A stretch of 64,000 nucleotides of DNA, from contig JAGQOH010000006.1 of NCBI GenBank assembly GCA_020427635.1, positions 1 to 64,000 of the forward strand. Reading direction: 5' to 3'. The translations under genes were made by a program, and so were the position numbers. The notes beneath the pieces were generated by a model. That model was not told the origin of the DNA. It saw only the letters and a program-made list of their open reading frames with translations, and made no database searches. Source of the stretch: Phycisphaerales bacterium. GTDB taxonomy: Bacteria; Planctomycetota; Phycisphaerae; Phycisphaerales; UBA1924. Positions within the stretch are counted from its first letter, which is position 1; every line of letters begins with the position of its first letter. Shown here in pieces: positions 4,716 through 24,309 of the stretch.

Positions 4716-5125
4716 AGGAATGTCGCCTTCTCATCACCGATTGTCATCGTGTAACGCCAAACGCTGACCATTGCGGGCGCATTGGCCTCGCCTGTAACCT
4801 GGGAGATTGGGTTGTCCACTTGCTCGCGCACACGCGTGATGACGTACTGCTGACCATTGAAGTCACCACTCCACACGGGCTGGCCGGTTTCCGGATCCGC
4901 GATGGGATCGGGCAGCGCTCGGTTGATCAGCATCGTGTGCAGAGCATCCAATGGCCTCGCCGCACGACATGCCTCACCAACTTGCGCACCCGTGCGCATC
5001 GCTTGCACGCGCAGTTCGAGCGACGCCACCAGGATCATCGTCATGAGCGCCAATGCGATCACCGCCTCGAGCAATGTGAAGGCGTGCGCGGCACGACATA
5101 CAGATTGGCCACGCATGCTGTTCAC
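4703..5125 (-). CDS. GspI-like minor pseudopilin
   Basis: A 140-aa pseudopilin. The leader ends at Ala15 and the mature protein begins FTLLE (Glu20 at +5), followed by a hydrophobic helix and a short globular domain. The short length fits GspI, which initiates the GspI-J-K tip complex. The GTG start overlaps the gspD TGA as GTGA, implying coupled translation, and no clear separate Shine-Dalgarno sequence is visible. The processing site has Ala at -1, as in the GspJ-like and GspG neighbours. Confidence 0.7.
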   Translation of the reverse strand: MNSMRGQSVCRAAHAFTLLEAVIALALMTMILVASLELRVQAMRTGAQVGEACRAARPLDALHTMLINRALPDPIADPETGQPVWSGDFNGQQYVITRVREQVDNPISQVTGEANAPAMVSVWRYTMTIGDEKATFLWYR

Positions 5126-7419: not shown

Positions 7420-7539
7420 GACGAACTCCTTCGGCGCCTCCATGCGCTTCACTCGGAGATCCTTCGCCGAGGCAGGCGGTCCGGGGCATCCGCCCCGGGG
7501 GGTGGGCATCCTCGCCCGCCGCCCTCGGTCTCCTCGACG

Positions 7540-8790
7540 TTATCCGCCTGCGATGGTGCTCATCGCAAGCATTCCAGACACAAGACTATAAACGACCCAG
7601 CCGACCGCGCCGGCCATGCACAGAATGATCATCGGCTCCATCACCGCCAAGAGGCGACTTCCCAGTGCCTCCTGCGTCTCCAAAGCCATCTCCGTCGCGC
7701 GGCGCAACGCGGGGGCCAGGTCCCCCGACTTCATCCCCGCCGCCACCACCGCGCCAAGCATGGGGGGCAACACCTCGTGCTCCCGCAGGGCCTGCCCAAG
7801 GTCGGCGCCTTCGCGGACGGCGGATCGCGCCGCCGCCACCCGCTCGGCCAAGACCGGCGATTGCACAACATGCGTCGCGTGTTCCAGCCCTGAAAGGGCA
7901 TCCCCGCCACCCTCGATCGTCGTCGCAATGATGTCGGTGATCGCCGCCGAGCGTGCATGCCACAAGAGCGTTCCTGCGATCGGCAAGCGAAGCGCCAGGC
8001 GCGCGATCCGCTTGCGCAGCCCTGGCGTCATCCACTGCTTCCGGAGCCCCACCGCCAGCAGCGCAACAACTGCGCTCCCAGGCACGAGCCACACCAGCAC
8101 GTGTGATGCCGCCAGCGTGATTCGTGTGGGCAATGGCAACTCACCGCCAAGCGATTCGAGCGTCGCCGCGAAGCGGGGGATCACGAATACACCCAGCATC
8201 CACACCGCGCCAATCGCCGCAATGAGCAGCAGCGCCGGGTAGATCAGACGAGATGCCAGGGTCCGCTTGATGCGCGCCGCATTGCGCATGGACGTATCGA
8301 TCAACTGCACGACATGCGCCAGTCGGCCCGCGTGCTCGCCGCTACGAATGAGTGCGACTTGCTGCGCACTCGCCAACTCCATGCGCGCTCCATCCGCCTC
8401 ACCACTGGCCAGCGCCTCGAGCCCCTTCGCAAGGGTCTCGCCGCCACGAAGCCGATCGCGCAGCACCTTGCATGCGCGCTTCACCAACGTACTCGGCCCG
8501 AGTTCTTCCATCGTCTGCAATGCGCTCTCGATCGGCACCGCAGAACCCAGCAACATGCCAAGCGTCTGGAAGAACCAAAGCCGGTCGCTCGCACGCAACA
8601 CACTGCGCCCCGCCGCCAACTGCCCCCGCAACGCATCAAACGCATGCACGGGCCGCACGGACAGCGGCACAAGACCTTGCTCGCGCAGCTGCTCGCGCAC
8701 CGCGTTCTCGTTGGCCGCTTCACGCTGTCCGGTGATCGGCGCCCCGGTCCCGCCCCGCGTCGCCACTGCTGTGAAGGCAAACGTCGTCAC
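7540..8790 (-). CDS. gspF: GspF inner-membrane platform protein
   Basis: A 416-aa polytopic protein of the GspF/PilC family, with two repeated T2SSF domains (about 75-200 and 275-400) and three membrane helices. The first domain carries the family signature region around LWFFQTLGMLLGSAVPIESAL. GspF forms the centre of the inner-membrane platform and contacts the GspE ATPase. The GTG start overlaps the gspE stop as GTGA. A gap of about 120 nt to the gspD start contains only the gspD leader. Confidence 0.88.
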   Translation of the reverse strand: MTTFAFTAVATRGGTGAPITGQREAANENAVREQLREQGLVPLSVRPVHAFDALRGQLAAGRSVLRASDRLWFFQTLGMLLGSAVPIESALQTMEELGPSTLVKRACKVLRDRLRGGETLAKGLEALASGEADGARMELASAQQVALIRSGEHAGRLAHVVQLIDTSMRNAARIKRTLASRLIYPALLLIAAIGAVWMLGVFVIPRFAATLESLGGELPLPTRITLAASHVLVWLVPGSAVVALLAVGLRKQWMTPGLRKRIARLALRLPIAGTLLWHARSAAITDIIATTIEGGGDALSGLEHATHVVQSPVLAERVAAARSAVREGADLGQALREHEVLPPMLGAVVAAGMKSGDLAPALRRATEMALETQEALGSRLLAVMEPMIILCMAGAVGWVVYSLVSGMLAMSTIAGG

Positions 8791-10472
8791 GCGCCGGCCT
8801 CCGTCGCAACATCGGGATCATTGGCCCCGAGCACGCGCAACATCTCGGCCTCGTCTGTCATGCCCTGTGCAACCAACCGCTCCGCAGCGAGGCGCATCGG
8901 CTCAAAACCGCCCGCCAACAGCGCACGCCGAATCGCGCCCTCCTCAGCACCTTGCAACATCGCTTGTTTCACCGCCGATGTCACCCGCCCATACTCCATC
9001 ACTGCGACGCGCCCGCGATAGTTCGCCGAGCCATCAGCATTCCGTGGCTGCTGCGCATCCAATCGGCGCATGAGGCGCTGCGCGCTGATGCCCTCCACCG
9101 CAGCATTGACAAGGTAGGGTTCGACGCCCATGTCGACCAATCGCACAAACGAACCCGGCACATCATTTGTGTGCAGCGTGCTCATCACCAGGTGTCCTGT
9201 GAGCGATGCTTGAAACGCCATCTGCGCCGTTTCCTGATCGCGAATCTCGCCCACGAGAATGACATCCGGATCGTGCCGCAGAATGTGGCGCAGCGAATTG
9301 CCAAACGTCATATTGATCGCGGGATTCACTTGCATCTGATTCACGCCCGGCTGTGCGTACTCCACCGGATCTTCCACTGTCATGATCTTGCGCTCACTTG
9401 ACACGAGCTTGCGCAAGATTGCATACAGCGTCGTTGTCTTGCCCGAGCCGGTCGGACCAGTAATGAGCAGAATGCCGTGCGACTTCGCCGCCGCTCCAAA
9501 GAGCGCGTCCGACTGAGCCTGCGTAAACCCCAGATCCGCAAGTTCAATGTCCGCAAGCTGCTGGCGATCCTGGATACGAATCGCCGCGTCCTGACCATAC
9601 ATCGTGGGCACGATGCCCACGCGCAGGTCAACACCTCGCCCGCGCAAACGCATGCGTACGCGCCCATCCTGCGCGCGCCTGCGCTCAGCAATATCCAGCC
9701 CGCCCAGGATCTTGATGCGACACAAGAGCGCCTCATACATGTTCGCCGGCGGCGGCGTTTCCTCACGCAACACGCCATCCACGCGCAGGCGAAGCCGTGG
9801 CGATTGCTCGAACCGCTCCAAGTGAATGTCCGATGCGCCGAGATCCATCGCACGCTCGACCACCTGATTGAAGAACCGAATCACCGGCGCTTCCGACGCC
9901 ATGTCGCGCAACTGGCTCAATTCCGCCGAGACATCTATTGCCCCGTCATCCTGCGCCGACTCGATCTCGCCGTCGTGCGCACGCTCCTCGAGAAACGCCG
10001 CCACTTCCTTGTGCGTCCCGACGAACAAACGAACAGGATGCTGCGCCAGATCACCACCCGGCGCAAACCTGGCCAACACCGCCATCACCGTGAACTTGTC
10101 ACTCGGATCTGCAAGCACAATGTGAATGTCCGGCGCGGTTTGCTCCTCCAACGCTTGCGCCTCGAGCACAAGCACCATCCCGCTCTGCATGAAACCGATC
10201 GGCACATGCTCGGTCAGCTGTGCTTCATTCGCGTCGAGCGTCCACCGCGTCAGACTCAGCAGTTGACACAACGCGTCCGCAAGTTGTTCCTCGCCCACCT
10301 GGCCCAGATCCAGCAAAGCGCGCACCTCGCTCAGCCCTTGCTGCTTGGCCACCTCCTGCGCGATGCGCCAATCGCTTGCCGTCAGCAATCCGCGAGCGAT
10401 CAGTAGTTCACGCAGCGCGCCGCCATTGAATCGCGGCGCGACCATACTCGCGTTGTGCGCCGCCTGCGTCAT
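8787..10472 (-). CDS. gspE: GspE secretion ATPase without the zinc-binding domain
   Basis: A 561-aa cytoplasmic hexameric ATPase powering the pseudopilus. An N1-type domain at about 15-150 precedes a PAS-like N2 region and the RecA-like core. Walker A is GPTGSGKT at 339-346, Walker B is ILVGEIRD at about 405-412, and the Asp box (TVEDPVEY) and His box (LVMSTLHTND) are present. The four-cysteine zinc site usually found after the QRLxRRL segment is absent; that stretch is short and Cys-free. The start overlaps gspG and the stop overlaps gspF, each by 4 nt. Confidence 0.9.
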   Translation of the reverse strand: MTQAAHNASMVAPRFNGGALRELLIARGLLTASDWRIAQEVAKQQGLSEVRALLDLGQVGEEQLADALCQLLSLTRWTLDANEAQLTEHVPIGFMQSGMVLVLEAQALEEQTAPDIHIVLADPSDKFTVMAVLARFAPGGDLAQHPVRLFVGTHKEVAAFLEERAHDGEIESAQDDGAIDVSAELSQLRDMASEAPVIRFFNQVVERAMDLGASDIHLERFEQSPRLRLRVDGVLREETPPPANMYEALLCRIKILGGLDIAERRRAQDGRVRMRLRGRGVDLRVGIVPTMYGQDAAIRIQDRQQLADIELADLGFTQAQSDALFGAAAKSHGILLITGPTGSGKTTTLYAILRKLVSSERKIMTVEDPVEYAQPGVNQMQVNPAINMTFGNSLRHILRHDPDVILVGEIRDQETAQMAFQASLTGHLVMSTLHTNDVPGSFVRLVDMGVEPYLVNAAVEGISAQRLMRRLDAQQPRNADGSANYRGRVAVMEYGRVTSAVKQAMLQGAEEGAIRRALLAGGFEPMRLAAERLVAQGMTDEAEMLRVLGANDPDVATEAGA

Positions 10473-10879
10473 GAACGATTGTCCAGGTCCGCGGCGTCAC
10501 CATCACCGCCTTCGCGCCCGTCCGATCCAAGCGAGATGATGATGTAATCAAACTCAGGATCCGTCTTGTAGACGAAGTCGTGGTTCCAACCATCCTTGGG
10601 CAGTGACCGCCGCTCCAGGTAAGGACCCTCCCACTTTTCATCCGCATCCGTTGGCTTCTCGATCAGGGCGTGCAGCCCCTCCTCTTCCGTGGGCACACGC
10701 AACATGTCCAACTGAAACTTCGCCACCGCGCCGGACAGCAATTGGATCTGCGCCTTGGTCTGCTTCACCTGCCCACCTGAGAACACGCCCGCCAACCGCG
10801 GCGCCACCAGCGCGGCGAGCAGTCCAATGATTGCCAGCACGATCAACATCTCAAACAAACTGAACGCTCGTCGCATCAT
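10469..10879 (-). CDS. gspG: GspG major pseudopilin
   Basis: A 136-aa major pseudopilin. A very short leader (MMRRA) precedes FSLFE with Glu10 at +5, so cleavage would follow Ala5 instead of Gly. The globular domain ends with the diagnostic GspG calcium loop, LGSDGREGGDGDAADLDN, preceded by the conserved GPYL and LPKDGWNHDF segments. GspG polymerises into the pseudopilus that pushes substrates through GspD. The start overlaps the gspH stop and the stop overlaps gspE by 4 nt. Confidence 0.92.
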   Translation of the reverse strand: MMRRAFSLFEMLIVLAIIGLLAALVAPRLAGVFSGGQVKQTKAQIQLLSGAVAKFQLDMLRVPTEEEGLHALIEKPTDADEKWEGPYLERRSLPKDGWNHDFVYKTDPEFDYIIISLGSDGREGGDGDAADLDNRS

Positions 10880-11460
10880 CGATCGTCCCTCCCTTGGCCA
10901 TCGACACGCTCGACGCGCGGTGCGCCGGACACCGGATCAAACACGATGCGCCACACGCGTCCTTGCACATCACGCGCTGGTGCATCACCTGTGACCTCCC
11001 ATGGTGCCACCAGCAGATTCGCATTCAGCAGCTCGGTACGCTGCACATCCTCATTCACAAACCACCACATGCGCTGAAGGGTGCGGCCCGCGCCATCAAA
11101 ATCCACGTGATGGCCACCCACCGGTTCAACACGATCATCGATCGCGATGAGCCCTTGCGCTTCAACCAAACGGTGCATCCCAGGGCCGTCCACTGCGAAC
11201 TGCTCTTGCTTGCAGGTGAGCGTTGCCGTCAGCATCTCGCCGCGGCGCATCGCCTCAACGCGCGTCGTGGCGAGCACATCGACCATTGCTTGAAGCGCCG
11301 CACGCTCCTGTTGTACCGCCGAGGATGACGCCACGCGCACGCCAACCAAACTCGCCATAAGCCCAACCAGCGCGACAACCACCACGAGCTCGAGCAGCGT
11401 GAAACCACATCGAGCGCCCTGACGCCGCGGATTACCGGTTGCGCAACACGCTGATCGCAT
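10876..11460 (-). CDS. GspH-like minor pseudopilin
   Basis: A 194-aa protein with a Cys/Arg-rich leader ending in Gly19 followed by FTLLE (Glu24 at +5) and a long hydrophobic helix (VVVVALVGLMASLVGV). It then has a beta-rich globular domain typical of GspH/FimT. Its place next to gspG fits GspH, the subunit thought to join the tip complex to the GspG shaft. Of the four short pseudopilins here, this is the only one with the canonical Gly at -1. The start lies within the end of the upstream dockerin gene (29-nt overlap). Confidence 0.75.
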   Translation of the reverse strand: MRSACCATGNPRRQGARCGFTLLELVVVVALVGLMASLVGVRVASSSAVQQERAALQAMVDVLATTRVEAMRRGEMLTATLTCKQEQFAVDGPGMHRLVEAQGLIAIDDRVEPVGGHHVDFDGAGRTLQRMWWFVNEDVQRTELLNANLLVAPWEVTGDAPARDVQGRVWRIVFDPVSGAPRVERVDGQGRDDR

Positions 11461-12151
11461 CTTCGGTGCTCACCACTTGATCGCCATTGACATCGGCGCG
11501 TTGCAAGACTTCCGCCGAAACCGTGGCGCTGCCCGAGACGATCCGCAAGACCAGCGCCGCGTCGCGCGTGGTCACCTTGCCATCGCCATCCACGTCAAAG
11601 CTGCCAGCGGGCGACCCGCCGCCTTCGCCACCTGTGCCGCTGCTTCCAGTGCCGCCGCTGTTCGTTGTGTCTGATGTCACAACGAGATCAAGCGACTGCG
11701 TGGGCACCAGCAACTCAATCGGAAATCCTGGCAGATCAAACGGCGGCAAGACTTGGCCCGCATACTTGTAGTTGTAGTTCTCACCAGACGTGTTCTTCAC
11801 GCCCAGCTTGTGATACTCGGTGTTCGAGCTGCCGTCATAGAAACGGAACTCAATCAGTACGTTCTGCTCCGCGCCGTCGACCGCTTCCGTATTCGCATCG
11901 TCGCCAAACACCATGAACGCAAACTCGCCCGTCGCGGCCGACTCACCGGTAAAGGTGAAGCTGCCCACGAGCAGATCTCCCGCAAACGCACCGATCTGAT
12001 CGCCCGCCTCAATGATCGGGCCACCCTGGCTGGTCAACACGCCCGCCACACGCTGGCGCGTATCCGTCGAACCTGGCGTGTCGAATTGCGCGCGCGCTTC
12101 GGTGGCAAGCATGCCAAGCAACACCGCGATCACCCACTGCATCGTCCGCAC
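11432..12151 (-). CDS. Secreted protein with C-terminal dockerin-like EF-hand pair, first gene of the T2SS operon
   Basis: The GTG at 12151 has AAGGAG seven bases upstream and gives 239 aa. The frame extends upstream, but that part has no signal peptide or ribosome site. A Sec signal (VIAVLLGMLATEARA) precedes an unassigned beta-rich domain (about 25-150) and a Gly/Ser linker (about 155-175). Two EF-hand-like loops then follow, FDVDGDGKVTTRDA and ADVNGDQVVSTEDA, each followed by a hydrophobic helix, as in type I dockerins. It overlaps gspH by 29 nt, so it is co-expressed with the secretion machinery. It might be a T2SS substrate or an accessory factor; the N-terminal domain function is unknown. 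Confidence 0.75.
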   Translation of the reverse strand: MRTMQWVIAVLLGMLATEARAQFDTPGSTDTRQRVAGVLTSQGGPIIEAGDQIGAFAGDLLVGSFTFTGESAATGEFAFMVFGDDANTEAVDGAEQNVLIEFRFYDGSSNTEYHKLGVKNTSGENYNYKYAGQVLPPFDLPGFPIELLVPTQSLDLVVTSDTTNSGGTGSSGTGGEGGGSPAGSFDVDGDGKVTTRDAALVLRIVSGSATVSAEVLQRADVNGDQVVSTEDAISVLRNR

Positions 12152-12197
12152 GATGGTTCTCCTTGTCCGCCCCGGGTGGGCGCCGGCACGACCTGTC

Positions 12198-12226
12198 ATG
12201 CTAGCGCTAAACCGCCACGCCAGCAA
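12198..12226 (-). promoter_or_regulatory. Candidate sigma-70-type promoter of the T2SS operon
   Basis: On the minus strand TTGCTG (12226-12221) and TAGCAT (12203-12198) are separated by 17 bases, about 45 nt upstream of the GTG at 12151. The site lies between the terminator of the upstream gene and the first T2SS operon gene, where a promoter is expected. The hexamers match consensus only moderately. Confidence 0.35.
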
Positions 12227-12248
12227 GATTCTGCTCCAAACCGCCCGC

Positions 12249-12289
12249 AAAAACAAAAAGCCGGGGGGCCGCGTGATGCGACCCCCCGG
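12249..12289 (-). terminator. Rho-independent terminator of the giant surface protein gene
   Basis: An 8-bp perfect stem (CCGGGGGG/CCCCCCGG, 12261-12289) with a 13-nt loop is followed on the minus strand by a T-rich run (complement of 12249-12259). It lies 30 nt beyond the stop of the surface protein gene and insulates the T2SS operon. Confidence 0.85.
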
Positions 12290-12318: not shown

Positions 12319-15300
12319 TTACGGATAGTGGATGAACACGGCCGAGCCGTCTTCCACCGTCTCCAGATCGCCATGGCTGTTCGTGCCAGCCGAGCGAGTG
12401 AAGAAGTCGTAATCGTCGTTGATGAACTGGATCGCGAAGTCGGCTCCGCCACCCAGTGCACTCACGCCGCCCGACACATCGATGTCCTGGCTCACGGTCG
12501 CAAGCACCCAACCGAGGTTAGTGTTGCTGGCCGGGAACGAGCTGAAGGGCACGCCCGGGGCAATCTTCGGCCCGAACTGGAAGCAACCGAGGTCGCCCCA
12601 CAGGTTCAGGATGCCGAAGCCGTAGCCACCAACCAGGCTCGTGATGTTGTCACCACCGAACTGCACGCCCAAGTTCGTCATCGTGAACTTGAAGTGCGGG
12701 AGGCAATCGATGTCAACGATGATTTGATCCAGCGGACCATCGTCATCGTCTGCCGCAGTCCACTTGCCGTCGCCGTTGAACCCGTCGTACCAGAACACGA
12801 ACTGCTCGAACGGACCAGCCGCCGGCAGGTCGCGCGACAGACCAGTCTGCACGTTCGTGGAGAGCACGCCACTGGGCAGCGTGGGCAGTGAGCTGTCGGC
12901 CACGCCCGAGGCGCGATCGAAACCAACCGCATTCCAGCCGTACCAGATCTCACGCTTGCCGATGTTGTTGAGTTCGACATCGAAGTCGAACGTCGAGGGC
13001 ACATCGGTGCCAAGCGTTGCCTGGAAGAGGATCGGGCCGCCGCCATCCGCGGCGTTGAGCAAGCTGGACGCCGCGCAACGCTCGCCGTTGGGAAGCTCAA
13101 TCACGATGATCACCGGGAAGTCCGCAGTCGACACCTTCGTACGACCCGTGAACAGGCCGCTCGGGGCGCCAACTTCGAGCTCGTAGCGACCATCCGAACC
13201 CGCAACAACCGCGCGGGAGAGGATGGGCTCGCCGTTCATTTCATAGCCGTTCCACCACAGGCACTCGCTCTCGCCATTGCAGCTACGCAGCGCGTCCCAG
13301 CACAGCGTGACCGTGCCGGACAGCGTCTGATCACGCGACTCACCCGTACCACGGAACGTGATGCTGGTGAAGCTGCGGAACGAGAACTCAAGGTCGATGA
13401 TGTCGGTCACGAAAGCGTGATCGTCGCCATCGCCGCCGAAGCTCTCGCCGTCGTCCTTGTAGTTGCTGAACCACTGCGAGTTGTTCTGGCCACGATGCAG
13501 ATACACGTGGTCCTCGAGGCCGAGCAACCAGTTGGTGATCGCATCGAAGCTGTTGTTGTCGCCGTGGTTGCCGTTGCGCTCGTAGGTGAACGGAATGCCA
13601 TTGTGCGTCGCGGTGATCTTGTCGACCACGGGCACGCAGACCAGGCCGTACACCTTCGTGCCGATCGGCGCGGGCACGCCACCATGGGTGATCGTGCCGG
13701 AGATCAGCATCGAGTTGATGTTGTCAGTCTCATCGCCGGTCTCGGACGGATTGACCAGGCCGTCGATCGGACGGATGCGGGCGTTCGTGTCCGCCGCCGC
13801 CGAAGCGAGCTGCGACACCGCGCCATTCGCGCCCTCGATCAACGGATCAGCCGTGTTCGAGTTGTAGCGCACTTCGAGCGGCGTCACCGTCGAAATGCCG
13901 GCGCTCGGCGAGTTGTCCAGCGTCAAGATGATCTCGGCATCCGAAGCGCCGACCGAGATGCCCGTCACCGGCGCGTCGGCCGGCGAGGTGATCTCGAAGT
14001 CATCCGTCGTCATGGCCGACGCATTGATGTTCTCGGTGAAGTTGAAGTGAACTTCATCGATGAACCCGTTGCCATCGAGGTCGATCGCCACGGCGCCGTG
14101 AATCACATCGCCTGCGATCGTCGACTGGAACGCCACATACGGCGCCGTGCAGGCCACCGCGGTCGCGCTCTCGACCGTCGCGGGATTGCCCGCGTCGTCC
14201 GTGATGTTGGCACCTTCGCGAATGCTGACCGACGCGCCGGGCTGCAGCTCATCGCTACCGGATGCATCGTTCTGGATCGTCACGGCGTTGTCGGTCGTGA
14301 AGATCGTCGGGCCGCCCGAGAAGATCGGAGCGCCGTTCACGAACACCTCGTCCTCATCGAACCCGCCAACCGACATCTCCTCAGAGAAGATGATGCCGAG
14401 GCGATCGAGCTCCTGGTTGTCGCCCAGCTGGCTGGTCGGCACGCCCGGAGGATTGTCGAGGACGTTGTCATCCATTTCGCGCCAGTACTGAATGTTCGAA
14501 CCATTCAGCTGGTTGTCGCCCTCATAGTGGCACAGCGAAACGAACAGCGCAGCCGCGCGGTCAACACTCGCAGCGGCAGCCGCGAGCGTGTTCATCGTCT
14601 CGTTGCCGGACGGATCAGACCAAGTTGCGTCCGTGAAGTCGAGCGTCAGCACGCTCGAGTCACCGGTGCCGGGCGTCGCCTCGCCATCGGTGTCGTCCGT
14701 GCCTGAGTTGCCGTCATCGTCCCAGTCCACGCCCGTCGGATCGAAGGCGAAGAACTGGCCGTTGCCAACCTGCAGGCGGCTGGGCACGTCGGGATCGAGG
14801 AAACTGATATCCGCGGAACCGGTCGAATCGACCGTGATCTCGTCGTCATCAGGATCCGCCGCGTTCTCGACATCGTCTTCCGTCAGATCGCCATCAGCGG
14901 TGATCTGCGCGAAGGGGAACACCGTGCCGCCATCCTTATTGAGCTCGACGTCGCCGATCGCCAGATCGCTCGTCACAGGCTCATCAAAGAACGGGGCAAC
15001 AGCGTCAAGCTCGCCATCGCTGTTCATATCGAGGAACGCCAGGCCGAGGTACGTCGGCTCGATGCAGTCCTCGACGTCGACCGTGTCATCCTGGCCGATC
15101 GAGTCCGCGAAGATCGAATCCGGAGGCGTGCCGCCGGTCGAGTCCGTCGCGATCTTGAACGTCTCGCCATCCGTCGACATGCCGTCGGCCCAGATGGTGA
15201 TCGAGTCGTCCGCGCCGCCATCGATGTCCCAATCCACGAGCACCGAAGAGGTGTCATCCGGATCGAGCCCGATGCTGTCGACCGTGAAGTCGGCGCCGCC

Positions 15301-16383
15301 GGACGTCTCGAGCAGATTGCCAAGCGAGTTCTGCACTTCGCCGTAGTAATCAGAGTCACCAAGCGAGCCGCCATCGACCGGCAGCGAGAAGGTCACGCGC
15401 ATCGTCGCGGTGTCGCCAGGGCCGCCGCCGACCGTCCAGCACGCCGAGAGGACCTCGAACGTCGGGGTGTCGGTGGTGAGCACGCCGGTCACGACCATGT
15501 CGCCCTGCCCGGCTTCGTTGCCGACCAAGTCATAGATCGCCATGTGCGTGGGCAGACCATCGTCGTCCGCGGCCGCGCGCCAAATCGTGCCGACCGGGAA
15601 GTCGTCCGCAGTCACATCAACACCAATCGTGGTGTTGCTGTCACCCGCGTTGTCGACAAAGTCGGCATCGGGGGTGAAGGTCAGCGCGGCGCCGTTCGGC
15701 GTCTGCGTCGTGTTGTCGAACGCGTTCGTCGATCCCGTCGCCAGGAACTGGAAGGTCGTGTCGTCAACGTTCGTGAGGTCGGTGTCCACCATGCCCGGAC
15801 CGCCGGCGCCTTGCAGCGCCTCGTCAAACACGAAGAACAGGCGATCATTCGCCGTGTTCGTGTACACCGCAGTCAGCATCGGACCGGTGATGTCAATCTC
15901 GAGCGTCTCGTCGACCGTCTCGTCGGCGCTGTCGATCGCGGTGCCGGCACCATCGACCAACCCCGCCGTGCCTTCCGTCGAGCAGACGAACTCAACAGCG
16001 ATGATGTTCGGGTTGCCCGCCCAGCCGTCGATCGTGCCCGATGCACCAGCACCAGCAATGTCAACTGTGAAACTCTGGGCCGTGTTGGCGGCGAAGATCG
16101 GGGCGCCACCAATGCCCGCGGACACATCCACGAGCGAGGTCACACGCGCGCCGGCGGTATTCACGCCATACATCCCGACCGCGTCAATCGCTTGGCCGAC
16201 CACCAAGCCCGCGCTCGCGGGCGTGTCGTACTCAAGCTCGACCACGGCGACCGGGCCGATGAATTCGTTGTCATTCAAGCGGGGACTCAGCACCACGAGA
16301 TCGGTCGCCGGTGCGGCGGCCGCGATCATCGGGAGTGCGAGGCCGGCGGTAGCCGCCAGCAGCCCTGCCAAGTTGCGATTCAT
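12319..16383 (-). CDS. Giant acidic secreted protein with repeated Ig-like domains, candidate surface-layer or cell-surface protein
   Basis: Translation is placed at ATG 16383 (AAAGGA nine bases upstream), giving 1354 aa; the frame runs 71 codons further upstream without a signal. A Sec signal peptide (MNRNLAGLLAATAGLALP then IAAAAPA) is followed by an extremely acidic, lysine-poor body. At least five spaced segments share a pattern such as FVFDEALQG, VTFSLPVDG, PFFDEPVTS, IIFSEEMSV and FNFTENINA, each opening a beta-rich unit like the SbsA-type Ig-like domain of surface proteins. The C-terminal third (from about residue 900) is a distinct Trp/Gly/Asn-rich region without a recognised family. 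No membrane anchor or dockerin is seen at its end. It has its own strong terminator and lies next to the T2SS operon. Confidence 0.7.
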   Translation of the reverse strand: MNRNLAGLLAATAGLALPMIAAAAPATDLVVLSPRLNDNEFIGPVAVVELEYDTPASAGLVVGQAIDAVGMYGVNTAGARVTSLVDVSAGIGGAPIFAANTAQSFTVDIAGAGASGTIDGWAGNPNIIAVEFVCSTEGTAGLVDGAGTAIDSADETVDETLEIDITGPMLTAVYTNTANDRLFFVFDEALQGAGGPGMVDTDLTNVDDTTFQFLATGSTNAFDNTTQTPNGAALTFTPDADFVDNAGDSNTTIGVDVTADDFPVGTIWRAAADDDGLPTHMAIYDLVGNEAGQGDMVVTGVLTTDTPTFEVLSACWTVGGGPGDTATMRVTFSLPVDGGSLGDSDYYGEVQNSLGNLLETSGGADFTVDSIGLDPDDTSSVLVDWDIDGGADDSITIWADGMSTDGETFKIATDSTGGTPPDSIFADSIGQDDTVDVEDCIEPTYLGLAFLDMNSDGELDAVAPFFDEPVTSDLAIGDVELNKDGGTVFPFAQITADGDLTEDDVENAADPDDDEITVDSTGSADISFLDPDVPSRLQVGNGQFFAFDPTGVDWDDDGNSGTDDTDGEATPGTGDSSVLTLDFTDATWSDPSGNETMNTLAAAAASVDRAAALFVSLCHYEGDNQLNGSNIQYWREMDDNVLDNPPGVPTSQLGDNQELDRLGIIFSEEMSVGGFDEDEVFVNGAPIFSGGPTIFTTDNAVTIQNDASGSDELQPGASVSIREGANITDDAGNPATVESATAVACTAPYVAFQSTIAGDVIHGAVAIDLDGNGFIDEVHFNFTENINASAMTTDDFEITSPADAPVTGISVGASDAEIILTLDNSPSAGISTVTPLEVRYNSNTADPLIEGANGAVSQLASAAADTNARIRPIDGLVNPSETGDETDNINSMLISGTITHGGVPAPIGTKVYGLVCVPVVDKITATHNGIPFTYERNGNHGDNNSFDAITNWLLGLEDHVYLHRGQNNSQWFSNYKDDGESFGGDGDDHAFVTDIIDLEFSFRSFTSITFRGTGESRDQTLSGTVTLCWDALRSCNGESECLWWNGYEMNGEPILSRAVVAGSDGRYELEVGAPSGLFTGRTKVSTADFPVIIVIELPNGERCAASSLLNAADGGGPILFQATLGTDVPSTFDFDVELNNIGKREIWYGWNAVGFDRASGVADSSLPTLPSGVLSTNVQTGLSRDLPAAGPFEQFVFWYDGFNGDGKWTAADDDDGPLDQIIVDIDCLPHFKFTMTNLGVQFGGDNITSLVGGYGFGILNLWGDLGCFQFGPKIAPGVPFSSFPASNTNLGWVLATVSQDIDVSGGVSALGGGADFAIQFINDDYDFFTRSAGTNSHGDLETVEDGSAVFIHYP

Positions 16384-16737
16384 GCCAACTCGTCCTTTCT
16401 TTGCTTCTCCACCGCAAAAACCGGTGAAGCCGACTTGCTTGCTCCCGTGCAGGACCCGCCTCTTGAGGGCAAAGACTGGGCGCCTCCACTTGTCGAGCCT
16501 GTGCGGGAACACGGCAACCCTGCCGACCCCGCCGATCAATCTGACTCGCCGCGACGTCCACTCGACGCCTCGGCGATGACACCAAAACCCCGACATTTAT
16601 CGGAGCTTAGTGTCAGGTAACTTACACGCCCCTTGCGGAACGTGCAAAGACGCCCCGAGCGGGTTTCTCCGCCTGAGGCACGCGTATGGGGCTATCGACC
16701 GCCTGCCACGAAAAGCCGCAACCTTTCTCGGAGCAGG
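16384..16737. other. Intergenic region upstream of the surface protein gene
   Basis: A 354-nt gap between the LuxR-type gene and the surface protein gene, both on the minus strand. It must contain the promoter and 5' leader of the surface gene. An AT-richer patch near 16595-16625 is the likeliest site, but I found no hexamer pair with good spacing. Small inverted repeats occur (for example CCGA...TCGG near 16590-16605). No convincing small gene is seen. Confidence 0.4.
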
Positions 16738-17169: not shown

Positions 17170-17494
17170 GACTGCTTTCTCCACCCACGGGCCTACGGGC
17201 GCCCGGAGCCTATTTCTCCCGCGACCAGCCTAGCGAACCATGGGACGCCAAGCAATCGTCCGAAGTGACGATAAGTGCTGAAAGGTCCCAGATTTGTTTC
17301 CCATCTCCTGGCAACCTGTAGGCGTCAGTCAAGGCCGCGCATTTGGCGTGCCTGTGCGGCCTGGGACGACCTGTGAATGCGCCGCGCCCGCTCCCCCCGG
17401 GCCCCGCGCTCGGGCCGGGGCTCGCCCTGGTCGATCAACCGGATTGGCTGTGCCGCGCGATCGCGGCCGACGGGCCCGAAGCTGGGGGTGCGAC
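17170..17494. other. Divergent intergenic region between the LuxR-type gene and pilT
   Basis: About 325 nt that must hold the promoters of both divergent transcription units. The left 120 nt are the less GC-rich part and contain the likely promoters. The right 150 nt are very GC-rich, with runs such as CCCCCCGGGCCCCG (near 17393), and could form stable leader structures before pilT. An open frame continues upstream of pilT through this region, but it has no signal of being coding. Confidence 0.4.
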
Positions 17495-18571
17495 GTGTCG
17501 AAGGTCGAACAAGGCGTGGAAGTGGACGAGATCCTTCGCCGGGCCGCTGAAGCCGGCGCCTCAGATATCCACATCGTGGCGGGCCACCCGCCGGTGATCC
17601 GTGTCCACACAGTCATGACCCCAATGGACTTGCCGGTCGTCTCCTCCGAAGACGCCGAGGCCATGGTCCGCGAGATGACCTCCGAGGGCTCCTACCAGAC
17701 CTTCCAGCGCCAGCACGACGCCGACTTCTCCTACGCCGTCGAAGGCTTGGGACGCTACCGCGTGAATGCCCACCGCCAACGCGGCGTGCCGGGCATCGCC
17801 CTGCGTGCCATCAAGACCACCGTGCCGCCTCTGGCACAACTCAACCTGCCCGAGGTCATCACCCGGTTGACCTACCTCCCGCGCGGCCTCGTGTTGGTCA
17901 CGGGTGACACCGGTTCTGGTAAGTCGACCACGCTCGCCGCCATGATCCAGGCGATGAACGAGCGCTATCAGAAGCACATCATCACCCTTGAGGACCCGAT
18001 CGAATACGCGCTGCAGTCCAACCGCTGTCTCATTGAACAGCGCGAACTCGGGCAAGACATGCCCAGCTTCGCTTCGGCACTCAAGCACGCGCTGCGTCAG
18101 GACCCGGACATCGTACTGGTCGGCGAAATGCGTGACTTGGAGACCACCGCGCTCGCGATCACCGCTGCAGAAACGGGCCACTTGGTGTTGAGCACGCTGC
18201 ACACCACCGATGCCTCGCAGACCGTCGAACGTATCATCGACATGTATCCCGCGGGTCAGCAAAACCAGATCCGCGCGATGCTCGCCAACACGTTGCAGGC
18301 GGTCATCTCACAGACCCTGTTCCGTCGCATCGACGCCAAGGGCATGGTGCCCGCCGTCGAAATCCTGTTGTGTACGCCCGCCGTGCGCAACCTGATTCGC
18401 GAAGGTCGAACCTTCGAAATCCCGAACGTCATCGAAACCAGTCGCGCAATGGGTATGTGCTCGTTGGACTCATCGATTGCGCAGCTGTACTTCAACGGCA
18501 TGATTGGCAAGGAAGACGCCGTCGCACAGGCCGCCTTCCCGGACAAGCTCGAGCAGCAGTTGGCGGCGTAA
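17495..18571 (+). CDS. pilT: PilT twitching motility (pilus retraction) ATPase
   Basis: The GTG at 17495 has a GGGGG run about six bases upstream and gives 358 aa, the usual PilT size; the longer upstream frame reads as GC-rich leader. PilT features include EAGASDIHI near the N-terminus, PPVIRV, Walker A GDTGSGKST at about 137-145, the Asp box (TLEDPIEY), Walker B (IVLVGEMRD) and the His box (LVLSTLHTTDA). The C-terminal NLIREGRTFEI segment corresponds to the AIRNLIRE motif needed for retraction. PilT depolymerises type IV pili at the inner-membrane base. It is followed 43 nt later by pilC. Confidence 0.93.
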   Translation: MSKVEQGVEVDEILRRAAEAGASDIHIVAGHPPVIRVHTVMTPMDLPVVSSEDAEAMVREMTSEGSYQTFQRQHDADFSYAVEGLGRYRVNAHRQRGVPGIALRAIKTTVPPLAQLNLPEVITRLTYLPRGLVLVTGDTGSGKSTTLAAMIQAMNERYQKHIITLEDPIEYALQSNRCLIEQRELGQDMPSFASALKHALRQDPDIVLVGEMRDLETTALAITAAETGHLVLSTLHTTDASQTVERIIDMYPAGQQNQIRAMLANTLQAVISQTLFRRIDAKGMVPAVEILLCTPAVRNLIREGRTFEIPNVIETSRAMGMCSLDSSIAQLYFNGMIGKEDAVAQAAFPDKLEQQLAA

Positions 18572-18614: not shown

Positions 18615-19841
18615 ATGCCCGCGTATCGGTATCAAGTTCGCCAAGGCAATGGCCAGACCGTCGTCGGCGTGTTGAACGCCGAGACGGCAGCTGCTGCAGC
18701 TTCCTCGCTGCGCGCCCAGGGCATGCAGGTGCTCACGGTCTCGCCAATCGTGAGCGGCATCGATTCGCAGGCATTCTTCAAGCGCCTTCGCGAACTGAAC
18801 GCGGGCAAGGTCTCCTCCAAGCATGTGCTCGATTTCACCACCCAGCTCGCGGTGATGGTCCGCGCGGGCATTGGCATTCGTGCAGCCCTCGAGGGCATCG
18901 CCGCCCAAACCGAGCACGCCAACTTCCGCAAGATCATCATGGGCCTGAAGTCAGATGTCGAGTCCGGCAAGCAGTTCTCGGAAGCCCTTGCACGCCATCC
19001 GAAGCTCTTCAACCCGCTGTACATCAACATGGTGCGCGCCTCGGAAATGTCAGGCTCGTTCGGCAAGATGCTCGACCGCATCGCCGCCTACCTTGCGCAG
19101 CAAATCGAAACGCGCAAGATGGTCATCGGCGCCATGATCTACCCAGGCGTCATCGCCACCATGGCCGTCGGCGTCACCGTCTTCCTCCTGACCTTCGTGT
19201 TGCCCAAGTTCGCCGGCGTCTTCAAGGGTAAAGAAGACGCCCTGCCCTGGGCCACCACCTTCCTGATGGACCTGTCTGCAACACTTCGCTCGGATTATCC
19301 GATCATTCTGGGCGTGCTGGCTGGCATCGGTTTCGCCATCTTCATGCTCCTGCGCACTGACACGGGCTCGTTCTGGTTCGACAAGCTCAAGCTAACCGTG
19401 CCCGTCATGAAGCGCATGTTCCGAGCCCTCTACATCAGCCGCTCCCTGCAAACACTGGGCGAACTCATCAACGCAGGTGTCCCCATGCTCGACACCATCG
19501 CCATCACGGGCGATATCTCGGGCAACAAGCTCTACAAGCGCATGTGGCGCGGCGTGTACGCATCAGTCAAGCAGGGCAAGAAGATCGTGCACACGCTCAA
19601 CACCTCGGCTCTCATGCCTCACGCCGTCGTGCAGATGATCGGCGCGGGCGAAGAATCCGGCAAACTGGGTGAAGTGCTCGAGGAAGTCGCTGGTTACTAC
19701 GCCAAGCAACTCCGGGAGTCCATCAAGGCGGTTACCGGAATGATCGAGCCCCTCATGATCATCATGATGGGTTCAATCGTCGGCTTCATCGCCATGGCCA
19801 TCATCCTGCCGATCTTCAAGATGAGCCAGATCGTTCGGTAA
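18615..19841 (+). CDS. pilC: PilC type IV pilus platform protein (GspF family)
   Basis: A 408-aa polytopic inner-membrane protein with the YRYQVRQGNGQTVVGVL N-terminus typical of PilC. Two GspF domains (about 70-195 and 270-395) and membrane helices near 175-200, 220-240 and 375-400 are visible. The start has AGGGGAG just upstream. It contacts PilB/PilT on the cytoplasmic side and the pilins in the membrane. It is the second GspF paralogue in the window, and its neighbours show it belongs to the pilus. Its stop overlaps the longer version of the next frame by one base. Confidence 0.92.
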   Translation: MPAYRYQVRQGNGQTVVGVLNAETAAAAASSLRAQGMQVLTVSPIVSGIDSQAFFKRLRELNAGKVSSKHVLDFTTQLAVMVRAGIGIRAALEGIAAQTEHANFRKIIMGLKSDVESGKQFSEALARHPKLFNPLYINMVRASEMSGSFGKMLDRIAAYLAQQIETRKMVIGAMIYPGVIATMAVGVTVFLLTFVLPKFAGVFKGKEDALPWATTFLMDLSATLRSDYPIILGVLAGIGFAIFMLLRTDTGSFWFDKLKLTVPVMKRMFRALYISRSLQTLGELINAGVPMLDTIAITGDISGNKLYKRMWRGVYASVKQGKKIVHTLNTSALMPHAVVQMIGAGEESGKLGEVLEEVAGYYAKQLRESIKAVTGMIEPLMIIMMGSIVGFIAMAIILPIFKMSQIVR

Positions 19842-19915
19842 TGCGATGGTGTAAGGGCAGGCAACGTGCGGCCAATGGTTGGCCGGGCGTATGTGCCGCA
19901 GGACCGGAGCGAGCG

Positions 19916-20638
19916 ATGTTGGCTGCGCGACGGACAATCAGGACACACCGGTTGGAGCGTGCGCGCTCGGCGCTTGGCTTCACGCTCATCGAAACCATGC
20001 TCGCGGTGGTCATTCTCGGACTGGGCGTCGTCGTGATCTTGCGATCCATGATGACCTTCCTCCAGACCAACATCTGGTCCACCCATTCCGCAACTGCCGG
20101 CTATCTCGGGCAGGAAATCCGCGAGCTCACACGCAACCTGCCGCGCCACGATGTCTTCTCAGGCGGTCTGTACTTCACCATCGACGCCGGCGGCGACACC
20201 GTTCTCAACGGTTGGGGCCTCGAGACCGGCGAGATCCTCCCCGAAGACATCGATGACATTGACGACCTCGATGGCCTGGCCTTCGGCACACCGCCGGCGC
20301 CCGATGGCTTCGACGTCACCCAATGGATGGCGACCGGGCCCATCAATGCCTTTGGTTCGATCATCGAACAAACACTGCACGACGGCACCGTCTCCATGGT
20401 TGACGATGGCGAAGGTGGACAGGAAGCAGAAGCGCTCCGCGGATGGTCTCAGTTCATTCGTGTCGAGAAGCTCGACCCCTACGACCTGTCAACCGTCGTC
20501 GACAACGCAGCATTTGTCGCAGGCGTGCGCCCAGTCGATGCATACCCGCTGCGCGTCACCGTCATCGTGACGTACAACGGCGTCTGGGCCGACCAAGCGC
20601 CCGCCAGCACTGAATTCTCATGGATCATCCCGCCGTAA
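19916..20638 (+). CDS. Type IV minor pilin, PilV-like
   Basis: A 240-aa protein from ATG 19916 (GGAG six bases upstream); the frame is open back to 19841 without support. A basic leader ends in Gly21 before FTLIE (Glu26 at +5), then a typical pilin helix (TMLAVVILGLGVVVILRSM). The globular part is acidic with an EDIDDIDDLD stretch. Position after pilC and before PilX- and PilW-like genes suggests a priming minor pilin. It could also be called a GspI/PilV-family protein, since the C-terminal domain is not diagnostic. Confidence 0.78.
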   Translation: MLAARRTIRTHRLERARSALGFTLIETMLAVVILGLGVVVILRSMMTFLQTNIWSTHSATAGYLGQEIRELTRNLPRHDVFSGGLYFTIDAGGDTVLNGWGLETGEILPEDIDDIDDLDGLAFGTPPAPDGFDVTQWMATGPINAFGSIIEQTLHDGTVSMVDDGEGGQEAEALRGWSQFIRVEKLDPYDLSTVVDNAAFVAGVRPVDAYPLRVTVIVTYNGVWADQAPASTEFSWIIPP

Positions 20639-20727
20639 GCAGAGCTTCGAAACGGGCGCCGCGCGCCCAACGACTCCATCGGCGTGAGGGAGAAAGCACG
20701 GTTGCCTCTGAGTTGAGGAGTCCGGCA

Positions 20728-23562
20728 ATGAACGGGAAACGCATCAAGCAAGTTCGAGGTTCACGCAAGCGCCGTCCGCGCTCGCAGAAGGGCGTCGTCG
20801 GCATTCTCGCCATGATGTTCTTGGTGATGTTCGCGTCACTGGCGACAACGCTCGCCATCGTGACGCAGGGCAACCTGCGCAGCGCCGTCGCACACCAACG
20901 TGTCGTAAAATCGATCAGCGCCGTGGACACAGGGCTGGAAATCGCACAGGCGCGCCTCGCGGAAGCCGCTTCTCGCTTCATTGTCGCCAAGGGTGACATC
21001 ACGCCCCTGTACGCATCGCAACTCTGGGATGGCAGCTATCTGAGCGACCCGCCCGTGACCGTCATCGCGCCCCTGTACATGCGCGACGAACCGGCACTGC
21101 CCACAAGCATTGCCCAGGCCCTGGCGTATCACCACGCTTCCGACGATGAGGACAACATTGTTGCAGAGGATGGCTCCAACGCCCCCGCAGGCATCGTGTT
21201 GCCCGATGAATCGCCCGTCGATTGGGTCGTCACAGCGCCGATCGGCCTGGAGCGCGACCAAACCGGCAACATTGTCACCGCAGCACAAATCACCTACTTG
21301 CCGCCCGACGAGTACGGCGCTGTTCGCGTCGTCGTCACGGGATACACCTGGGACTTCGCACGCCAGCGCTGGGTCACGCGCACTGCGCAACAGTCCTTCG
21401 ACATGACCAAGAATCTCGAGCAAGCCGTGCTCGCGCCGTCTCGCCTCATGATCGGCCGAAACGTGCAGATCAATGGCCCGCTCGGCATTCGATACAACTC
21501 GCAATCGCTCGACACAATCGATGGCGCTCCACTTACCATGAAGAGCGACTTCTATGGCCTGAGCGCCGAGCTCGACGCCAAACTAGACGACTTCTACGAA
21601 ATGGTCGTCGCCTATGACGTCGATGGCGACAACCGCCTCCGCGAGCTGCACTCGTTGGAAAACTTCCCGCTCACATCCCTCAATGCCAACGACTATGACG
21701 GCAACGGCACGAGCGACCAAGCCTTCCAAGACGTCACCCGCGACGGTGTGGTTGATGACTTCGACATCTTCGTCAAACACTTCGACACCAATGGTGACAA
21801 CAAGCTCGTCCTGTCTTCAGATCTCATCGATGGCACGCCCGCCGAGGCCCTCACGCCCGAGTTCACACTCGACGACGCACTGGGCATGCTGATCGACAGC
21901 GGCAAGCGCGATCGCAACGGCAACGGCCAATGGAATGGCCAGTTCGAGAGCGGTTCTTGGGACTACTCAACCTTCAAGGACAACAATGGCGATGGCTTCA
22001 CAGACAACAGCGACGTCGACGCCGACGATGTCGTCCTTGGCTATCGCGATGGCGTGCTCGACTACCGAGACCGGTACGCAAAGGTGCGCGGCCCCATCAC
22101 CTTCATCGCCAACCGCGATGATTGGGAGACCATGGACAATGGTTGGGGGAATCCCGTTGGCGACTACCAGCAGTATGTGCAAGGCGGCATCGTGCCCGGG
22201 CGCGGCGAGCAGCCCATCTCGTTCGACGCAAGCGACAGCGAACTGCCGCCCATCGATGCGGACAGCTTCGCCGATGCAACCCAAACGTTGATCGATGTCG
22301 CCGAGAGTGAATCGCTCTCCTTCGAACAGCAGGTTGCAGCTGCCATGGGCGGAGGCTATACGCCCCCCACGATCATCGAAGGCACGCCCTATGGCGCCCC
22401 TTCCGCCGCCGATCTTTATGAACGCCCGGTGTACTCGGACATCACGTTCAAGAACGTGAAGATCCCGATGGGCACCAACGCGCTGTTCCAAAATTGCACG
22501 TTCATCGGCGTCACCTTCGTCGAGTCCTACGCCGACAACACACACCCGTCCTGGCCCTTCTATGGCCAGCAGAATCGCGACCCGGACACCGGCGCGCTCG
22601 AATGGACCTACCCGCAGTCCGAGGACTCGGAAATCGCGCTCGACAAATCATGGGCCGAGCCCGACTGGGAAGGCTATGACAGCTTGCCCGACCCGCTCAT
22701 GGTCAACATCGATCTCGATGGCGATGGCACGACCCCAGACCAGTGCATCAACACCAAGCTCTTGTCGAACAACTTGCGCTTCAATGACTGCCTGATCGTG
22801 GGCTCGATCGTCTCGACGCGAACCACCGTGTTCCACAACAAGCGCAATAAGATCCAGTTCACAGGGTCAACGCGCTTCGCCGAGCAGCACCCAGACTACC
22901 CCGATGATCCGGACTACAATCCGGACAGCGAGGACATGGATGCCATCTCGCGCAGCTCCTTGATGCTGCCCAACTACTCCGTTGACATCGGCACCAATAA
23001 CTCGGACCCCGATCAGGATGTCCACCTGCACGGCGCGATCGTCTCGGGCATCATCGACATCCGCGGCAACGCAATCATTGATGGCGTGCTCCTGAGCGAC
23101 TTCACGCCGACCTATGGCGTCGCGCCGCTCAATCTGTACGACCAGGCCGTCGGTAATCCCGCCGACTTCAACATCACCCTGGGCTACTTTGGCCCGGAAG
23201 ATGGCGACGAGGAAGGCATCGACCTGTCTGGCCTCGAGATGGTCGATGGCCAATACGTCCTGGGTGTTGACACCGCGCGCGATCCCGACACCGGCGCGAT
23301 GATCACGGTCGCTCAGGCGTCCGCGCTGGGCTATGACTCGCCCGACGAGTACCCGGACGCTTGGTTCGACGGCATCGCCGACACCGACGCCGAGTTCTTC
23401 GATGGCGACTGGGCCGTGCGCAACGTCACGTTCAACGGCTTCGGACGCATCGTGCTCAACTTCGACCCGTCCATGCCATTGCCCGATGGTCTGGCGACGC
23501 CCATTCGCATCGCCCCGCGCAGCTGGGGGTACGTCGAAGGACGCCTGTCCTACGACGAGTGA
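20728..23562 (+). CDS. Giant PilX-like pilus protein with calcium-binding-type loops
   Basis: A 944-aa protein from ATG 20728 (GAGGAG about seven bases upstream). The N-terminal 60 residues are basic then hydrophobic (helix about 22-46, GVVGILAMMFLVMFASLATT) and followed by alpha-helix, as in PilX-type minor pilins, but without a consensus G|FTLIE site. The middle (about 290-460) holds many Asp/Asn-rich EF-hand-like loops, for example DVDGDNRLRE, DYDGNGTSDQ, DTNGDNKLVL and DNNGDGFTDN. The C-terminal half contains segments that suggest a beta-helix-like fold (FKNVKIPMG, FQNCTFIGVTF, FNDCLIVGSIV). PilX proteins are normally about 200 aa. Location between minor pilins suggests a tip adhesin-like role; that is inference. 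Confidence 0.65.
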   Translation: MNGKRIKQVRGSRKRRPRSQKGVVGILAMMFLVMFASLATTLAIVTQGNLRSAVAHQRVVKSISAVDTGLEIAQARLAEAASRFIVAKGDITPLYASQLWDGSYLSDPPVTVIAPLYMRDEPALPTSIAQALAYHHASDDEDNIVAEDGSNAPAGIVLPDESPVDWVVTAPIGLERDQTGNIVTAAQITYLPPDEYGAVRVVVTGYTWDFARQRWVTRTAQQSFDMTKNLEQAVLAPSRLMIGRNVQINGPLGIRYNSQSLDTIDGAPLTMKSDFYGLSAELDAKLDDFYEMVVAYDVDGDNRLRELHSLENFPLTSLNANDYDGNGTSDQAFQDVTRDGVVDDFDIFVKHFDTNGDNKLVLSSDLIDGTPAEALTPEFTLDDALGMLIDSGKRDRNGNGQWNGQFESGSWDYSTFKDNNGDGFTDNSDVDADDVVLGYRDGVLDYRDRYAKVRGPITFIANRDDWETMDNGWGNPVGDYQQYVQGGIVPGRGEQPISFDASDSELPPIDADSFADATQTLIDVAESESLSFEQQVAAAMGGGYTPPTIIEGTPYGAPSAADLYERPVYSDITFKNVKIPMGTNALFQNCTFIGVTFVESYADNTHPSWPFYGQQNRDPDTGALEWTYPQSEDSEIALDKSWAEPDWEGYDSLPDPLMVNIDLDGDGTTPDQCINTKLLSNNLRFNDCLIVGSIVSTRTTVFHNKRNKIQFTGSTRFAEQHPDYPDDPDYNPDSEDMDAISRSSLMLPNYSVDIGTNNSDPDQDVHLHGAIVSGIIDIRGNAIIDGVLLSDFTPTYGVAPLNLYDQAVGNPADFNITLGYFGPEDGDEEGIDLSGLEMVDGQYVLGVDTARDPDTGAMITVAQASALGYDSPDEYPDAWFDGIADTDAEFFDGDWAVRNVTFNGFGRIVLNFDPSMPLPDGLATPIRIAPRSWGYVEGRLSYDE

Positions 23563-23589: not shown

Positions 23590-24309
23590 ATGCATCCGCA
23601 GGTGCTCGACAACGCAGGTTCGCACATCCGTCGTCGCTCGCGGCGCCGGCGCGGCTTCACCCTGATCGAGATGCTCATGGCACTCACCATCAGCGCCTCC
23701 CTCATGGCCGCCACGCTCGTCGCATTCGACGGCATGTACAAGATCTACGACACCTCGACGACGTCCGCCTCGAACCATGTCGTCGCGCGCATCGCGGTCT
23801 CGCGCTTGCTTGGCATGATGCGCACCGGGTCCGACTTTGGGCCCTTCCCCGCCGACGTGCTCAACAGCGATGTCAACCCGCTAAAGGCAGACTACTTCGA
23901 GTTCGCCTCGCAAACCAACGCGCAAACGGGCGCGATCGAACAGATCACGCGCGTCGAGTTCCGCCTGCCGGGCCAAGACGCACCGCTGCGCACTTGGGGC
24001 GCCAATGACGATCCGCCATTGATCGACTCCGATGCCGATGGCGAAGGCGATACCATGGGCCCGGGCGAGCTCTGGGTCATCGTGATCGATCCCTCATCGG
24101 GCGATGAGCAAGAGTTCCTCATGCTCTCCGACGTGCGCTCCGTCGCATTCGAGCTCGAATATGACATCGGGCCGCGCCTTGTCAAAGGCACCATCGACAT
24201 CACCTTCGAGCCCACGCTCGCGTCAGACAACACCGTCTGGACGCCTGCGACGCCCGAGAGTGTGCGCCTGGTCGCCAGCGCCATGCCCCGCCGATCAGTC
24301 GATCGTTAA
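23590..24309 (+). CDS. Type IV minor pilin, PilW/GspJ-like
   Basis: A 239-aa protein with AAAGGAG about seven bases before the ATG. A strongly basic leader (RRRSRRRR) ends in Gly22 before FTLIE (Glu27 at +5), then a hydrophobic helix. The globular domain carries Asp-rich stretches (DSDADGEGD) near 140-150, again suggesting calcium binding. It is the last gene of the pilus operon and meets gnd tail-to-tail with one base between the stops. The PilW label rests on size and operon order. Confidence 0.75.
   Translation: MHPQVLDNAGSHIRRRSRRRRGFTLIEMLMALTISASLMAATLVAFDGMYKIYDTSTTSASNHVVARIAVSRLLGMMRTGSDFGPFPADVLNSDVNPLKADYFEFASQTNAQTGAIEQITRVEFRLPGQDAPLRTWGANDDPPLIDSDADGEGDTMGPGELWVIVIDPSSGDEQEFLMLSDVRSVAFELEYDIGPRLVKGTIDITFEPTLASDNTVWTPATPESVRLVASAMPRRSVDR

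Follow-up and report, generated by a model that had tools for sequence, protein, structure and literature searches.

A giant minor pilin with calcium-type loops in a pilus operon of the Phycisphaerae

The usual PilX proteins of type IVa pili are about 200 aa, which raises the question of what a protein of 944 aa, with about five times the length of a typical minor pilin, is doing in the PilX position of a pilus operon in a Phycisphaerales bacterium. The window analyzed here is a 64,000-nucleotide stretch of that genome (contig JAGQOH010000006.1 of assembly GCA_020427635.1, hereafter the source genome). An earlier sequence-only reading suggested that the protein, referred to here as X, could replace a PilY1-type calcium-dependent tip adhesin. 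We examine the operon, the distribution of X, its calcium-type loops and its predicted structure, and weigh the roles that X could play at the pilus tip.

The operon and the N-terminus of X

X is encoded by the fourth gene of an operon with the order pilT, pilC, pilV-like, X, pilW-like (T-C-V-X-J):

17492 to 18571, plus strand: pilT, type 4a pilus retraction ATPase (TIGR01420 pilT_fam, 442.6 bits against a cut-off of 319.1)
18615 to 19841, plus strand: pilC/gspF-type inner-membrane platform protein (PF00482, 1.3e-56), conserved in the operon
19841 to 20638, plus strand: V, PilV/GspI-like minor pilin with a GFTLIE prepilin motif, position conserved
20728 to 23562, plus strand: X, giant minor pilin of predicted modular build, 944 aa, pI 4.1
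23590 to 24309, plus strand: J, PilW/GspJ-like minor pilin with a GFTLIE motif (PF07963 above cut-off)

The best NCBIfam model for V was TIGR02523 pilV (E=0.003) and J was matched by gspJ (E=0.0013), both below cut-off. The pilT reading frame opens at 17294, a start near 17492 is suggested by homology, and its product is 92% identical to the PilT of the related locus L031 (358 aa ORF). The proposal that X lies in a minor-pilin operon, and that the same operon should be sought in other planctomycetes, was borne out, as X is encoded next to pilus machinery genes, between pilins of the PilV and PilW types, and this order is identical in 30 of 31 related Phycisphaerae loci (L031 to L061). The exception is L047, where T and C were not found within the stretch. 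The genes that flank the operon vary between loci. PilB precedes it in L049, and a relative with a shorter form of X (L115) has the same operon, preceded by a second ATPase of the T2SSE type that is probably PilB. The source-genome PilB that best matches that of L049 (60% identity) lies at the end of another contig (C84), close to a weak PilM match. A 1425-aa Asp-rich, secreted-looking protein with no Pfam match is encoded divergently from the pilus operon, at 12319 to 16596 on the minus strand; it also adjoins the operon in L031 (62% identity) and L035.

The mechanical call of the X reading frame is 20620 to 23562, with an in-frame ATG at 20620. We prefer the ATG at 20728 as the start, since the ortholog in L031 (78% identical) begins at the equivalent residue. 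From this start, a basic leader leads to a conserved Gly22 and then to a hydrophobic helix beginning VVGILAMMFLVMF:

20728 to 20793, plus strand: prepilin-like leader, residues 1-22, to the conserved Gly22, without Glu at mature position +5 (sequence, conservation)
20788 to 20970, plus strand: long N-terminal helix, residues 21-81 (AlphaFold2 model; PilX_N match at the equivalent residues of relative L126)

Mature position +5 is Leu, and Glu is also absent from this position in GspK and in some PilX proteins. The class III signal peptide motif (IPR012902/PF07963) was not matched in X, though the Gly22 leader is present without Glu5. No Pfam or NCBIfam model matched X, including PilX_N (PF14341, no match at E<=1), the PF05567 propeller domain and T2SS_GspK. 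Eleven close relatives of X likewise had no Pfam match. More distant relatives match PilX_N together with weak solenoid-type families such as Pentapeptide_3; PilX_N reaches 30.4 bits against a cut-off of 25.5 in L126 and is weak in L124, L116, L120 and the second protein of L118. The 944-aa frame with a PilX-like N-terminal helix described by the sequence-only reading is thus real, with the PilX_N cut-off passed in a relative.

Several other filament systems are encoded in the source genome (G000, 3.06 Mb), which has 16 T2SSE-type ATPase matches (one below cut-off) and 6 secretins, a sizeable complement of type IV filament systems. Near the pilus operon, a type II secretion cluster (65 to 12256, minus strand) encodes GspD, E, F and GspH-like, GspK-like and GspL-like proteins. 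Its pseudopilin lies outside the X operon:

2881 to 4059, minus strand: GspK-like pseudopilin of the type II cluster (NF037980 T2SS_GspK, E=9.6e-14, below cut-off)

A second PilT-containing cluster with four pilins (L089:2087-6790, contig C58, with L078:7076-19001) could make its own pili. Since one of its products is a 1567-aa protein that has a PilX-like helix at its N-terminus and no NCBIfam or Pfam match, X is not the sole tip candidate. Loops of the D-x-D-x-D-G type are also present in another minor pilin of this genome (656 aa, L089:66-2036), so that pilins of this genome may often carry calcium-type loops. Proteins of the Verru_Chthon cassette were considered as well and rejected, as weak N-terminal matches were obtained for J and for pilins of the second PilT-containing cluster and none for X; we found no paper on this cassette.

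Calcium-type loops and the two forms of X

X is strongly acidic, with 110 Asp residues, and the sequence-only reading had counted at least five Asp/Asn-rich loops. When the loop core pattern D-x-[DNST]-x-[DNS]-[DNG] was scored, eight cores were found, at residues 297, 322, 335, 353, 395, 418, 429 and 662, which agrees with that count, though several of the loops are degenerate. Shuffles of the whole protein gave 1.3 expected cores (1 of 2000 reached 8), and local shuffles of residues 280-460, where seven cores are found, gave a mean of 0.8 (0 of 5000 reached 7). The local shuffles rule out loops that arose by chance from the acidic composition. The insert and the loops are as follows:

21496 to 22362, plus strand: calcium-type insert, residues 257-545, mostly missing in other families of the class (alignment, tree)
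21616 to 21660, plus strand: loop A, DVDGDNRLRELHSLE, residues 297-311; D297, D301 and E311 invariant in 61 sequences
21691 to 21726, plus strand: loop B, DYDGNGTSDQAF, residues 322-333; in the window's own family only
21730 to 21765, plus strand: loop C, DVTRDGVVDDFD, residues 335-346; near-canonical EF-hand loop, family-wide
21784 to 21819, plus strand: loop D, DTNGDNKLVLSS, residues 353-364; position 12 is the canonical E in other families
21910 to 21945, plus strand: loop E, begins DRNGNG, residues 395-406
21979 to 22014, plus strand: loop F, DNNGDGFTDNSD, residues 418-429; mostly in the own family
22036 to 22071, plus strand: loop G, LGYRDGVLDYRD, residues 437-448; degenerate EF-like, D448 invariant
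22711 to 22746, plus strand: loop H, begins DLDGDG, residues 662-673; in a few close relatives only

The insert is an EF-hand-like segment of about 290 residues, about 30% of the protein, that is placed after the first predicted coil of a beta-solenoid. D335 of loop C is also invariant in the 61 sequences, and this loop has the 12-residue EF-hand layout with acidic positions that other families conserve. A full EF-hand consists of a 12-residue D-x-D-x-D-G loop with a helix on either side. In the window's own family loop D has no acidic residue at position 12; in other families of the order it ends in the canonical Glu. The strict PROSITE EF-hand pattern gave no matches in X, and one or two matches in nearly half of its relatives. 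Pfam EF-hand did not match X; weak, below-cut-off matches to EF-hand and dockerin models were found in two insert-bearing relatives. When the family profile was compared with the PDB, the matches listed were weak ones to EF-hand proteins (E about 0.2-0.9), with neither ComZ nor any pilin among them. The loops are putative Ca2+-binding sites. The conserved operon, the PilX_N match in a relative and the conserved loop residues together provide good support for X as a pilus-associated giant pilin in the PilX position with calcium-type loops.

X was matched in 156 of 397 genomes of the class Phycisphaerae, which rules out a one-off gene or an assembly artefact, and in 41 of the 43 genomes sampled from the window's own family. 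With a shorter relative of X as the query, 246 genomes sampled over the phylum yielded no match beyond the class. Two forms can be distinguished. The insert-bearing form (705-1000 aa) was sampled from families f1-f5, f8 and f10, and its loop number ranges from 0-2 EF-type loops in f8 and f10 to 4-10 loop cores in f1. The insert-less form (525-670 aa), sampled from f12, f14, f17, f19, f22, f23 and f25, has the pilin and solenoid parts with most of the insert missing and no 12-residue EF loops. In an unrooted tree of 411 core columns from which the insert was excluded, the two forms are separated by one split with support of 0.999. Because the tree is unrooted, gain and loss of the insert are formally indistinguishable; gain requires the simpler account, since the insert-less form matches ComZ (a tip pilin discussed below) in size and keeps the same operon in L115. 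The calcium-type insert was therefore probably gained once inside the class. Beside the insert-less homolog of X in L118, another PilX-like protein of 531 aa is encoded (L118:7516-9111), with a weak match to PilX_N.

Predicted structure and known tip pilins

An AlphaFold2 model of X was built from 12 sequences. Its mean pLDDT is 55.5, and the pilin module is modelled best (about 75-88 over residues 130-230). The predicted order is a 60-residue helix, an antiparallel sheet, a series of short repeated strands, then the insert, which is poorly modelled, and further repeated strands:

21241 to 21435, plus strand: antiparallel sheet of the pilin module, residues 172-236 (model)
21427 to 21489, plus strand: first predicted beta-solenoid coil, residues 234-254 (model; every member of the core alignment aligns here)
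22363 to 23232, plus strand: remaining predicted beta-solenoid, residues 546-835 (models; solenoid-type matches, none significant alone)
23449 to 23541, plus strand: conserved C-terminal strands to Y-x-E-G, residues 908-938 (conservation), probably the returning last pilin strand

Among 350,542 PDB chains searched with Foldseek, the top match was ComZ (E=0.038, probability 0.11, 726 alignment columns), and no match reached E 0.001. This match is not significant alone, yet it is an unprompted match of the model to a solved pilin with an inserted solenoid. A C-terminal fragment modelled separately gained no confidence (mean pLDDT 54.7), and its matches were mostly solenoids (pentapeptide repeats, tailspikes, polygalacturonases, PfbA), all with E above 1. 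The earlier description of beta-helix-like sequence, and the structure prediction that had been proposed as a check on it, are therefore upheld in part: a pilin module followed by solenoid strands is predicted and almost all of the matches are solenoids, while each match is individually weak and the mean pLDDT is about 55. The solenoid fold and the domain layout are predictions of low confidence.

ComZ from Thermus thermophilus (PDB 6QVI) is a DNA-binding tip pilin that carries an inserted beta-solenoid and is encoded in a minor-pilin locus; its pilin module is closest to that of GspK (PMC6561018). X resembles it as a large minor pilin from such a locus with a predicted beta-solenoid, a GspK-like pilin module and a probable tip position. 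ComZ differs in its size (554 aa) and in lacking a calcium insert, and no significant sequence similarity between the two was found. The solenoid of ComZ is inserted between the last pilin strand and the one before it. The end of ComZ, SYERR as inferred from a cloning primer (PMC6561018), compares with Y-x-E-G in X, and the likeness to the Y-x-E of X relatives is suggestive only. PilX proteins (PF14341) share with X the N-terminal helix and the position between PilV-like and PilW-like pilins, but have neither solenoid nor loops. Modular tip pilins provide a precedent (PMC8179133): in Streptococcus sanguinis PilB and PilC, as proposed for X, a functional module is grafted onto a pilin for display at the tip, the modules there being vWA or lectin domains and in X an unnamed predicted solenoid with an EF-hand-like insert. 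GspK of type II secretion is also a large tip pseudopilin with an extra domain within the pilin fold and I and J partners; its insert differs from that of X, and in the source genome it belongs to a separate cluster. The PilC/PilY1 tip adhesin (PF05567) is likewise large, calcium-related and encoded with minor pilins, but it is a secreted non-pilin with a type I signal peptide and a C-terminal propeller. X, in contrast, starts with a prepilin-like sequence, lacks the propeller and does not share the secretion route of PilY1.

Candidate roles at the pilus tip

The reading that we favor, and consider reasonably probable, is that X occupies the PilX/GspK position in a retractile type IVa pilus, as a large minor pilin that displays a solenoid adhesin or cap at the tip, with an insert held by Ca2+. 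The N-terminal helix and sheet of X would pack with the minor pilins V and J in an initiating and tip complex. By analogy with GspI-J-K, ComZ-PilA2 (PMC6561018) and the modular pilins (PMC8179133), assembly would start with X together with V and J, and X would cap the fibre. A beta-solenoid of roughly 300 residues would leave the pilin sheet and project from the tip, and Ca2+ would rigidify the EF-hand-like insert after the first coil. The head would most likely act as a built-in tip adhesin or ligand-binding cap. No adhesion domain is recognizable in X; for such a module a role in adhesion seems likeliest, with DNA binding next.

The loops might instead merely stabilize the fold or resist proteolysis, X being a structural cap that binds no ligand. 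That the insert is dispensable in the insert-less forms and that loop number differs between families would fit such a cap, but the invariant loop positions and the share of the protein taken up by the insert suggest selection beyond a spacer, and we regard this possibility as rather doubtful.

The proposal that X took over from PilY1, as a calcium-dependent tip adhesin and initiation factor, appears unlikely. PilY1 tip complexes need calcium (PMC8833165) and X lies among minor pilins. The absence of pilY1 noted by the sequence-only reading was confirmed, as PF05567 gave no matches in the window or the source genome in a search that did find its positive control in a Cupriavidus megaplasmid. 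As for a normal pilY1 and pilX set elsewhere in this genome, the pilY1 half is absent, while the second PilT-containing cluster has its own PilX-like protein. PF05567 exceeded its cut-off in 2 of 397 class genomes, G108 (clear, on small contigs) and G112 (marginal), and matched none of 294 genomes sampled across the phylum. The domain in G108 (L139, G108:C184:1795-2778) is clear and comes from a fragmented assembly; it is either a true gene or contamination. Against replacement, PilY1 is also missing where the X homolog is insert-less (e.g. G008, G028, G035 and G042), so the calcium loops do not track the loss of PilY1. Because the absence of PilY1 is nearly class-wide and includes genomes with loop-less homologs, replacement by X is not specifically supported. 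X may still do a PilY1-like job as a tip adhesin, with calcium loops that look like a later addition and not an ancestral PilY1 substitute. It is conceivable, if improbable, that a class-specific family of self-contained, calcium-gated tip adhesins fused to a tip pilin makes PilY1 unnecessary in the Phycisphaerae, with attachment or pilus initiation switched when the EF-hand-like loops of the insert bind Ca2+.

A ComZ-like tip receptor for DNA uptake in competence is less likely again. Such a role would agree with the best fold match of X, with the ComZ-like size of its insert-less relatives (525-670 aa) and with the known DNA-binding tip pilin that carries its solenoid in this way (PMC6561018), but X is strongly acidic, ComZ has no counterpart of the calcium insert and the fold match is not significant. 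That X is the GspK of a type II secretion pseudopilus is highly improbable, and we reject this reading: the same I/K/J-like pilin set, the missing Glu5 and the closeness of the ComZ pilin module to GspK (PMC6561018) are outweighed by the separate type II cluster in the window with its own GspK-like gene, the PilT encoded in the X operon and the lack of a GspK match for X.

X is a real and conserved protein that is unnamed in the model libraries and is probably a variant of the known modular tip pilins. As no Pfam or NCBIfam model describes it and yet it is found in nearly all sampled genomes of its family, it is a missed clade-wide component and not an oddity. The favored reading offers a way in which an adhesin could be displayed at the pilus tip in the absence of PilY1, and does so for a phylum with little-studied pili. 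Within one class, lineages that have the calcium-type insert in this tip pilin and lineages that lack it provide a natural before-and-after pair, and the role of calcium at pilus tips is therefore directly testable.
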